Origin: Flammula alnicola
Lineage: Eukaryota; Basidiomycota; Agaricomycetes; Agaricales; Strophariaceae
Assembly: GCA_015499995.1 (NCBI GenBank)
Contig: JADNRV010000002.1
Location: 1,355,520-1,419,519 of the forward strand
DNA length: 64,000 nucleotides
Reading direction: 5' to 3'
The translations under genes and the position numbers were made by a program. A model generated the notes under the pieces. The model had not been told where the DNA came from, did not search any database, and worked only from the letters and a program-made list of their open reading frames with translations. This document shows, in pieces, positions 4,895 through 17,263 of the stretch. The first letter of the stretch is position 1. Every line of letters starts with the position of its first letter.

Positions 4895-7057
4895 TCAGTC
4901 CCTCCGCGTAAATACATTCCTGAGCCACCGCCATCTTTGTCTGCCAGGTGCGCCCCGATTACTGACCCGTAGCTGGGCATCCGAGTCGTCCACAGCACGC
5001 GTTGTCAAAAGATCCGAATTAGCCTCATCCGCTTCCACATCGACTTCCCCGTCGATATCACCCCGACTGCCTCTTGCCAGCCGACTGGTTGCCTCTCCCT
5101 CGCTCATCGTCCGCCTTCTTTCTCGGGCGCCTCCCACGACCTCGCCAACCACATCAGCAAACGAAGGCCTGGGATGTCTCCGCTCGAGGGGCATGATCGT
5201 GAATCCGGGGCTGAGAGGCGACAAGCCGATCTGGAACCCGGTACTGAGCGTCGATACCGTTCCGAGAGGAGGAGAGACAGACGCGAGGGAGGCGTTCGGA
5301 TGAGGATAGGACACGGTACGCGAATGTGCCAGATGTGACGAGGCGACATCAATAGGTCGCCGGGTCAACCGACGCGATGGGATCCGAGGAGCCGTATAAA
5401 GTTGCGTTTCCGCTCGTGGTCGCTTGCCTCGAAGCAGGATTGTACTTCGAGTTAACCGTTGGTCCACTTCTTCCGGTCCGATATCAAGCCCCAATCCAGT
5501 CTGCGCTTGAGGGGTCAAGATATTCGGCAAACTAGATTCGGAGCGCGTCTCTCGGTCCATGGGCACAGGTCCTATATGTGGTCCGACTTGACTCGCCGCT
5601 GCCTGTTGGGTCATAGCTGTCTCAGACAGCCGTGTATCCTCTTCAGTATATTCTTGACGTTCTGAATACATCGCAACGTCCTCGCCTTCCAAGTTGACCA
5701 CTTCTTCATTCCATGTCCCCACATCAACGCCGCCGCCACTGCCGGGTTGGATACTTACTACCCAGACTCCGCATAATAGCACCAAGATACCAAGGCTGAC
5801 GAGACCAAGGTGTAGGGGCGGAATAAGCGAGAACTGGTTGAAATAAACCAGGCCGTTAACGATGGATGACAGGTTGTAGAAACAGAAGGCAGCTGCAAAT
5901 CATTTAGTGTTTAGAGATAGCAGTATAAATATCTTGATAAAACTCACAGGGGCAAACTAAAGTTGGATCAGCCAGAATGAGGGCCTTGTGGAGATACCAC
6001 AGTTGAAGGAGAGCGAAAGCAACCAATCCGAGAAGGAGCACCCATGACTCCCATCGCCAAAATTGGTTATTGCCACCTAAAGTCAGGACGAGCAGTTCAA
6101 CGCCACTCTTTGCGAAAAGCAAGCACATCCCAGAAATGATGCCTGAAAATGAAGCATAGGAAATGGCCAAAAGCAGACGAGTGCGATTGACTGCACGAAG
6201 GGCGGGGTCGTCTGTTTGGTTGTCGTTCGATGGAGGCGAGACGGCTCCTGACTTGGGGTCAATGAGAGGTGTCCGTTCTGTGGCCAATCTCGAGTCGTTT
6301 ACGGCATCGGAGAGGCCAGTCGTTAGGTTTGTAGAGTGGGTCGGTAAATTAATGGTCATGGATGAAGGTGAGACATCGGCAAAGGATGAATCAGATGGGA
6401 ATTCTTTTGCGAGTCGACGAGAAAGAGAGAACTCCGTAAGATGGGTCTGCAAAGGATTGAATAAGTGACCTTAGACATGTAACCAAAAAAATGCGAAGAA
6501 CTTACAATTGCGAGGCAGACGAAGACAACGAAACCCAAAATGGAAAAATATACAATGAATGTCGGCCGTCTAAATAGTTGTAAAAGATCTTCAAGAGAGC
6601 GCGTTTGTTCTGGAACGATGCCAAAGAAGGCTATCAAGATCGCTCCGCCAGCAATAAGGATGGTGCCCAGTATCATCCATGGAGAGAAGACATCTCCTAG
6701 CAGGAGACGGGCAAAAAAGGCATTCCATAGGAGGGATACTGCCCCCAGTGGGGCAAGAATAACGACAGGAAGAGATGCAATTTGGACGAAGGAGCCGAGA
6801 ATATTAGATGAGATGAATATGGCAAATCCAAGCAGCCATAATCTGTCGTATCAGGAAGAATAGTCAGCGCTCAATTTCGAGGAGGAATAAACAGGAAAAT
6901 CGTACGGTCTCCGATGCTCGACGTGTCTACGGTGCTCCGGTAATGATTGGTTCAAGACGTGGCTCTTTCGCTGAATAGTCAGCCCAAGGGATTGAACGAA
7001 AGAGGCAAGTAGGCCGATGATGATGCCGAGGGGTATAGATATGTGGTTGGCGGCCAT
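4895..7057 (-). CDS. NIPA-like magnesium transporter (DUF803 family)
   Basis: Minus-strand multi-exon gene. The ATG at 7057 opens MAANHISIPLGIIIGLLASF; an in-frame upstream extension has only a TTG. The reconstructed protein has about nine hydrophobic helices. Family landmarks include SLGLTIQRKSH, the segment LGSFVQIASLPVVILAPLG, and ALILADPTLVCPSAFCFYN. These match the NIPA/DUF803 family of membrane Mg2+ transporters in the drug/metabolite transporter fold. Between the fourth and fifth helices there is a ~100-residue hydrophilic loop rich in Ser and Thr. After the last helix comes a ~270-residue cytosolic tail (5740-4895), acidic then Ser/Arg-rich, far longer than in animal NIPA proteins. 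Substrate is inferred from the family only. The gene is divergent from HSP104 across a 530-bp gap. Confidence 0.85.
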
Positions 7058-15945: not shown

Positions 15946-17263
15946 CTAATACGGCACCTCGTGGAATAGCTTCGACACACTCTCTCCGTAGTGGCTGCGT
16001 CGTATCACTTCCCCAAGCACCTTTCCAATATCAATCACCTCGATTTTCTTGCATGCTGCCTGGTTCGCGTTCTGCGGCAACGTGTTCGTCACAATCAGCT
16101 TCTCCAGGTTGCTCTCCTCAATCGTCTCCAGCGCCTTGCCACTCAGAATTCCGTGTGTCACAAAGCCGAACACCTTGAGCGCTCCGGCTTCAGACAGGTG
16201 CGACGCCGCCAGACAGAGCGTCCCGCAGGTGTCCGCCATGTCGTCCACCAGTATCGCTATTTTGTCCTTCACGTTCCCAACCAATATCATGCGCGAGACC
16301 TCGTTCGCTTTCTTTCGCTCCTTGTGGAATAATGCAAAATCCACGCCAAGTCGATCGGCTATTGATGTTGCTCTGCCGAATTGTTAGCTTCGTTTTACAA
16401 CATAATCACTCCACAGTATTCCGCTTACCGTTTAGCGCCACCTGCATCGGGAGACACAATTACCACATCATCAACGTTGAAGTGCGTCCTAATGTACAGG
16501 ATCGCCGATGGTTCTGCGTAAAGCTGGCAAAAAAAATTCAGGCAAAATTCGAAATGAGCAAGGGTTGCGGGCTCCTCACACTAATGGATCGTTATTTACT
16601 TAAAGTAGCCTCGAGAAGCAATAGTAAAACTCACTTGTCAACCGGAACATCAAAGAAACCCTGAATTTGAGATGCGTGGAGGTCCATAGTCTGCGAATTG
16701 TCATGAACAATAGTGTAATTGCCGGTAGAAAACTCTACTCGCAATAATATGGTCGCATCCAGCTTTCTGGATCATATTCGCCACAAGCTTGGCCGTAATA
16801 GGCGCCCGGCTCTTGTCTTTTTTATCCTGTCGAGCATATGGGAAAAGGGGATGACCGCCGTAATCCGTTTAGCGCTCGCAATTTTACAGGCATGGATCAT
16901 GATGCAGAGCTCCATGAGAGCAGTGTTCACTGCACCACAGCCAGTGTTGATAATGTACACATCATCCTCTCGTACCGACTCTGCGATGGTGACGTTCGTT
17001 TCGCCAATACCACTTCGTGTGATTTCAGCCTTCGAGAGGGGCAAACCAATGCTGAAACATGGCGTCAATGAATGTCGAGGTCAAGGACGGGGAAGTGGTG
17101 GGGTGGAATAGAGAAGAGAGCTACCGTCTCGCAATGATCTCAGCAAGTTCAGGATGGCTCGTTCCTGCAGAAAAGCAGTCTGTTAGTCCAAACGCACTCG
17201 ATGCTGTTGCTGACAGTGCGCCTGCGCACCCGAAAAGATTTTGATCCCGCTTCCGTTCAACAT
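15946..17263 (-). CDS. Ribose-phosphate pyrophosphokinase (PRPP synthetase), frame problem in exon 3
   Basis: Makes PRPP from ribose-5-phosphate and ATP for purine, pyrimidine, His and Trp synthesis. The ATG at 17263 opens [12 protein letters not shown]; the next exon reads [13 protein letters not shown]. Conserved stretches follow: [51 protein letters not shown] and [14 protein letters not shown] (PRPP loop). The stop is at 15946. Three oddities: (1) at 16843-16846 a T4 run (minus strand) replaces the T5 needed to read VIPFFPYAR, so the frame slips by one; (2) the intron 16742-16691 begins GC, not GT; (3) the 111-nt gap 16634-16524 only keeps frame if it is two introns around a single-T exon at 16580. 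Everything else is intact, so either this is a working gene with one base missing in the assembly or a young pseudogene among the several PRS paralogues fungi carry. Confidence 0.88.

Follow-up and report, generated by a model that had tools for sequence, protein, structure and literature searches.

A Putative Single-Nucleotide Exon between Two Short Introns of a PRPP Synthetase Gene in Flammula alnicola

A PRPP synthetase gene of the basidiomycete Flammula alnicola (Agaricales, Strophariaceae) very probably carries an exon of a single nucleotide, a T at position 16580, between two ordinary short introns. The gene lies on the minus strand at 17263-15946 (a span of 1318 nt) of the window, which is the whole stretch of 64,000 nucleotides that was analysed (contig JADNRV010000002.1, positions 1,355,520 to 1,419,519). 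We observed directly the anatomy of the DNA in two haplotypes, the uniqueness of one parse among those tried, and the presence of the residue concerned in many short-contig proteins of relatives. From these we infer how the transcript would be spliced in Flammula, the likely order of the steps, and a probable sharing of the exon across Agaricomycete orders.

PRPP synthetase is the housekeeping enzyme that heads purine, pyrimidine, histidine, and tryptophan synthesis. The gene product matched PF14572 and PF13793 (Pribosyltran_N and Pribosyl_synth domains) above cut-off, and its best match in phmmer was Ribose-phosphate pyrophosphokinase 1 (best E value 9.6e-131); judged by its domains and its PRPS1-like sequence, it is a PRPP synthetase. 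Human PRPS1, which contains VDN, aligns without gaps with the gene product through PVDNLYAEP. The other PRPP synthetase gene of this genome encodes PVDNLWSEP in one uninterrupted exon, with no intron between VDN and L; it is present in two copies with few differences between them (G000:C102:77000-83000 and G000:C69:40500-46500).

Our gene model has seven exons, including the single base, and six introns (65, 73, 52, 54, 56, and 56 nt):

17230..17263, minus strand: exon 1, with the start codon at 17263 (gene model)
17165..17229, minus strand: intron 1, 65 nt, GTGCGC...GCAG (gene model)
17125..17164, minus strand: exon 2 (gene model)
17052..17124, minus strand: intron 2, 73 nt, GTAGCT...TCAG (gene model)
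16743..17051, minus strand: exon 3, in the window copy one base shorter than in contig C609, between 16851 and 16850
16691..16742, minus strand: intron 3, 52 nt, GC-AG type, GCGAGT...GCAG
16635..16690, minus strand: exon 4, ending ...GTT GAC AA, phase 2
16581..16634, minus strand: intron 4, the first twin, 54 nt, GTGAGT...TTAG
16580..16580, minus strand: putative exon 5, the single nucleotide, coding-strand T, third base of the Asn codon AA/T in VDNLYAEP
16524..16579, minus strand: intron 5, the second twin, 56 nt, GTGAGG...CCAG
16429..16523, minus strand: exon 6, beginning CTT TAC GCA GAA
16373..16428, minus strand: intron 6, 56 nt, GTAAGC...GCAG
15946..16372, minus strand: exon 7, to the stop codon TAG

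The boundary of intron 3 yields HIITMDLH, as in PRPS1 in the alignment. This intron is of the GC-AG type in both haplotypes, and P0056, the deposited Flammula alnicola model of the window's own gene, has extra residues there. Owing to the base missing from exon 3, which an earlier note on this DNA had overlooked, no full-length protein can be read from the window copy by itself; the loss is either an assembly error or the mark of a broken allele. P0056 skips ten residues at this point (16851/16850).

Exon 4 ends ...GTTGACAA at 16635, and CTTTACGCAGAA resumes from 16523 on the minus strand. The gap between them (16634-16524, 111 nt) divides into 54 + 1 + 56 nt, with TTAG/T/GTGAGG at the centre. 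When we re-read the sequence, the coordinates that the earlier note had given for the exon ends, for both introns, and for the T proved correct. The note had also described the gap as about twice the usual intron length, which agrees with the 65, 73, 52, and 56 nt (52-73 nt) of the gene's remaining four introns, and had held that removal of the whole gap loses the frame. Such removal does shift the frame of the downstream sequence, so that in C609 a stop follows VDN at a distance of 20 codons, and the 320-aa protein is obtained from C609 only with the T.

We enumerated the parses of the gap with GT or GC donors, AG acceptors, and a length of at least 40 nt for each intron, which gave 71 single and 359 double parses in the window (430) and 64 single and 283 double parses in C609 (347). 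VDNLYAEP resulted from exactly one parse per allele among these 430 and 347, and in both it was the two-intron parse that retains the T; the claim that the T restores a conserved Asn thus holds in both haplotypes, with gap-free alignment to PRPS1. The note had further stated that those of the other AG/GT pairs that give the right phase create a stop. If the outer ends are fixed, the T-retaining parse is the sole open in-frame parse. If they are left free, other parses are also open: 10 single and 4 double in the window and 4 and 1 in C609 with GT-AG introns only. Admitting GC donors as well raises these numbers to 14 single and 36 double in the window and to 5 and 39 in C609. VDNLYAEP was absent from every other open parse of the GT/GC-AG enumeration in both alleles.

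In both alleles, then, exactly one base lies between two canonical introns, the conserved protein loses its reading frame without it, and no other parse among those tried explains the protein. The site is not a zero-length recursive splice site, in which AG is directly followed by GT, as one frame-essential T stands between the two. By chance, AG[TC]GTRAG would lie 40 nt or more inside either end of such a gap with an estimated probability of 0.0004 in a Markov simulation and 0.0024 from its frequency in the window; for the loosest form, AG[TC]GT with the same placement, the estimates were 0.029 to 0.038. A recent duplication of one twin intron is unsupported, as introns 4 and 5 gave no blastn match to each other.

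Contig C609 (19801 bases) contains the same gene, 97% identical across the 401 bases compared (second copy of the region, G000:C609:13196-16597). It is probably the other haplotype, in which case the assembly would hold both haplotypes at least in part. With the T, this copy encodes an intact 320-aa enzyme, and the exon 3 base is present. Besides the exon 3 indel, the coding sequences of the two haplotypes differ in 6 codons, all of them synonymous (0 nonsynonymous), which suggests constraint on the frame to either side of the gap. Within the gap there are 4 substitutions and 1 indel, which spare the four splice dinucleotides and the T. Intron 4 of C609 has the same ends and 2 internal substitutions; intron 5 is 57 nt long (GTAAGG...CCAG), and the only donor change is GTGAGG in the window to GTAAGG in C609. 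Both haplotypes carry the odd junction, so it cannot be put down to a read error confined to a single copy.

We then compared protein models of relatives at the junction, using 184 distinct proteins (the best 120 of about 8000 scored in each of three protein searches). Sorted by hand according to source, the matches listed comprise 106 NCBI-labelled genome models and 78 proteins with jgi or lgn labels only; P0022 and P0047, which carry both ncbi and lgn labels, were counted as NCBI, and the 106 include P0056 and several species twice. We take the jgi and lgn labels to denote JGI metagenomes or metatranscriptomes and SRA assemblies. Among the matches listed, 100 of the 106 NCBI models were abnormal at the junction (99 of 105 without P0056) versus 0 of the 78 jgi/lgn proteins (Fisher p of about 2e-45, a value that overstates independence because the rows share ancestry, species, and pipelines). 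The listed jgi/lgn proteins read VDNL in 77 cases and VDSL in 1. The readings of the 106 listed NCBI models were VDNL (6), VDKL (30), DVP-L (25), VDK[W/Y/C]L (25), N-V-[S/G]... (5), VDK-THFN (2), VDKCY (1), and others (12). Alignment placed an indel near the site in 69 of the 100 abnormal models listed, the rest being abnormal by substitution. At the other introns of the gene, indels occurred in 2 of the 106 listed NCBI models, both at intron 3 and one of them P0056; 2 of the 106 had any indel outside residues 138-162, and in the jgi/lgn group 1 of the 78 listed had an indel elsewhere (P0082, which is short at its start).

Contigs shorter than 1318 nt carried 61 of the 78 listed jgi/lgn proteins; 17 were not that short, with 5 above 1600 bases and the longest at 6274. 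A 320-aa protein on a contig of less than 1318 nt points to cDNA or to a copy with few introns, and the jgi/lgn proteins are taken to be mostly transcripts. An origin in intronless genomic copies is possible for some of them and unlikely for the 61 on the shorter contigs. The searches retained proteins of 0.55-1.75 times the query length, a filter under which most T-skipping transcripts would go unseen; the 0 of 78 therefore counts against in-frame alternatives and not against skipping.

Several proteins that are identical elsewhere have been drawn differently at this one junction. P0059 (lgn, VDNLY) is identical at 297/297 positions outside the site to the Pleurotus models P0065, P0097, and P0101, which read VDKLY, DVP-LY, and VDKLTIGYLVSLY, respectively. 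The same complete identity outside the site links P0036 (lgn, VDNLY) to P0052 (Leucocoprinus, RGYYSLY) and P0073 (lgn, VDNLF) to P0116 (Suillus, DVP-LF). Identity of 297/297 elsewhere also joins Moniliophthora roreri P0047 (VDNLY) and P0090 (VDNVGTLALQ...), Dichomitus squalens P0129 (VDKLY) and P0140 (VDKWLY), Abortiporus biennis P0131 (VDKYLY) and P0157 (CTLKF...), P0121 (VDKLY) and P0124 (VDKCY), and likewise the deposited pair P0065 and P0101. This is what would be expected of predictors that are unable to place a 1-nt exon. When the 1-nt exon is forbidden, the Flammula DNA reproduces two of the model classes, DVP-LYAEP (the DVP-L class of 25 listed models, P0056 among them) and VDK-THFN (2 models).

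The remaining classes can be read in the same terms. N-V-S or N-V-G stands at the site in P0053, P0055, P0091, P0166, and P0090, which are from other species, and these models look as if translation had passed from AA/T straight into an unrecognised second donor (GTNAGY or GTNGGN). The 25 VDK[W/Y/C]L models would be explained by a donor moved by +4 within GTNNGT, and VDKL by a one-base overrun into intron 4. The VDKL models (30 of the 106 listed) show no change in length, and Lys occurs in 0 of the 78 listed jgi/lgn proteins. In some species the Lys of VDKL may be genuine, and no 1-nt exon would then be needed there; the Dichomitus squalens pair, VDKLY versus VDKWLY and identical elsewhere, fits AAG as a run into intron 4. 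The normal models P0022, P0047, P0064, P0104, P0105, and P0154 either are correctly drawn or come from genes that have lost the introns, and P0047 has the abnormal twin P0090.

Abnormal models were found in Agaricales, Boletales (Suillus), Atheliales (Piloderma), Polyporales (Trametes), and Russulales (Heterobasidion), with one VDKL model as a weak case in Jaapiales (Jaapia). This spread is that of the best 120 matches per search, lineages beyond these orders lying outside the listing. On the evidence of the proteins, the 1-nt exon is probably common to several Agaricomycete orders and usually misannotated.

Could the gap instead be one 111-nt intron accompanied by a one-base deletion, through assembly error or in a pseudogene, with no 1-nt exon at all? 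Such events do occur in the assembly, as the window copy has another deletion of this kind upstream. However, both haplotypes share the junction, with 6 synonymous and 0 nonsynonymous codon differences between them, 99 of the 105 other listed models fail at the same junction, and AG[TC]GTRAG would stand at the right place by chance at a frequency of only 0.0004-0.0024. The pattern in relatives makes a private frameshift or a sequencing error very unlikely, and we regard the deletion as a very improbable explanation.

The earlier note had allowed either a 1-nt exon or a twin intron. The latter, as a stwintron, would be an external intron that has its donor or acceptor split by an internal one and is removed in two nested steps. 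It would account for a gap that is twice the usual intron length and holds a second GT...AG unit, and it is of a kind described in other fungi. We enumerated nested GT/GC-AG parses with an internal intron of at least 35 nt and an external intron of at least 20 nt, and VDNLYAEP resulted from 0 of 1164 in the window and 0 of 980 in C609; moreover, both introns have complete canonical ends, and no base is borrowed. Within these limits, a strict stwintron with an interrupted donor, branch site, or acceptor is refuted at the sequence level, and we consider a stwintron extremely unlikely; it is the 1-nt exon that finds support.

An in-frame alternative uses the donor GTTGAC (16642) and yields a protein without Val-Asp-Asn (DVP-LYAEP), as in the deposited Flammula model. 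This reading is open in both alleles and was adopted in 25 of the 106 listed NCBI models, including P0056, but 0 of the 78 listed jgi/lgn proteins is without VDN or VDS, VDN is present in PRPS1 and in the second PRPP synthetase of the genome, and by eye GTTGAC is a poor donor beside GTGAGT; we find it scarcely credible. Least probable of all is a single 111-nt intron followed by a -1 ribosomal frameshift in which GAC AAC TTT is re-read as GAC AAC CTT TAC to give the same protein: the arithmetic fits the gene sequence, but inspection by eye showed no slippery heptamer of the X XXY YYZ type there, and the short-contig proteins of relatives have the residue in a presumably uninterrupted frame.

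Read as a 1-nt exon, the Flammula junction adds to the known single-nucleotide exons of APC11, VPS55, and CYP621A. The 1-nt microexons of APC11 (PMC4674806) and VPS55 (PMC8831610) occur in land plants, and the likeness to them is close: one coding base between canonical introns, essential for the frame, conserved over a wide clade (here apparently so), and absent from reference annotations. The reported G to A change in the donor of the VPS55 microexon (GTRAGT; PMC8831610) resembles the GTGAGG/GTAAGG difference between the Flammula alleles. The plant exons are in other genes and were proven by RT-PCR, RNA-seq, and, for APC11, reporter constructs, whereas the Flammula case is read from DNA and has introns of 54 and 56 nt.

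The earlier note had expected a clear fungal case, which is supported as a 1-nt exon but is not the first, as that of Fusarium CYP621A was published in February 2026, has read support, and is described in its report as the first for a fungal gene (PMC12940212). The two cases share a fungal host, a gap of about twice the median intron length (139 nt in CYP621A), a phase mismatch together with a conserved motif, and deposited models that are wrong (PMC12940212). CYP621A is a rarely expressed P450 gene of ascomycetes (with Fusarium and Nectria names), its base is the G in AGGGT, and its evidence is SRA reads (PMC12940212); the Flammula exon, in contrast, is in a basidiomycete housekeeping gene, consists of a T, is apparently present in several orders, and is known from DNA and protein models. 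Stwintrons as described in PMC5639578 likewise place two fungal introns in one oversized gap and are removed sequentially, but in Flammula no splice signal is interrupted and one exonic base stays. For Phanerochaete P450 genes, 6 bp is cited as the minimum exon length (PMC1184071), and an 8-nt Phanerochaete exon is mentioned in PMC12940212; our searches of the open-licence literature listed no single-nucleotide exon of a basidiomycete.

On the strength of those searches, this exon would be the first of its size described from a basidiomycete. If we read the models of relatives correctly, it would also be the most widely shared 1-nt exon in fungi, and in a housekeeping enzyme; the oddity would be old, common to related fungi, and usually overlooked, and the large majority of the genome models compared (100 of the 106 listed) would be wrong at the boundary between VDN and L. 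It would further mean that fungal intron definition copes with the smallest possible exon over long times, and culturable mushrooms would offer a system for asking how two splicing steps are ordered. An unlikely but conceivable extension is that the exon arose once, early in Agaricomycetes, and was kept as useful, inclusion versus skipping (with frameshift and mRNA decay) setting the dose of PRPP synthetase by splicing or nucleotide state.

In the proposed splicing, the T would complete the Asn codon (AA/T) of VDNLYAEP, and skipping it would shift the frame and lead to a stop 20 codons on. The predicted mature mRNA reads GACAATCTTTAC with the T, and the join without it would read GACAACTTTACG. 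Both introns would be recognised by intron definition, and the likely mechanism is that introns 4 and 5 are removed one after the other as two complete introns. Splicing factors cannot occupy the first acceptor and the second donor at once with a single base between the two sites, so the introns would have to go sequentially. Recursive splicing at zero-length exons, which retains no base and involves long introns, is alike in that acceptor and donor all but abut and removal must be sequential; it differs in that Flammula retains one base and its introns are very short.

For APC11, intron definition combined with recursive removal has been suggested, and in potato invertase, as quoted in the same report, the second intron goes first (PMC4674806). 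In Flammula, removal of intron 4 first is mildly favoured, because its donor is stronger and its removal improves the context of the second donor. The first donor has 7 of 9 matches to CAG/GTAAGT; the second has 4 of 9 in the window, rising to 5 of 9 once intron 4 is gone (from 5 to 6 in C609), its context changing from AGT/GTGAGG to AAT/GTGAGG with one more consensus match. In intron 4 of the window there was no full match to a CTRAY-like branch site, the best being 5/6, and the candidates are TTAAG, TAAAT, and ATAAC at 19, 14, and 11 nt; in C609 the candidate is TTAAT at 19 nt. The branch candidates of intron 5 are TGAAT/CTGAA in the window and CTGAT in C609.
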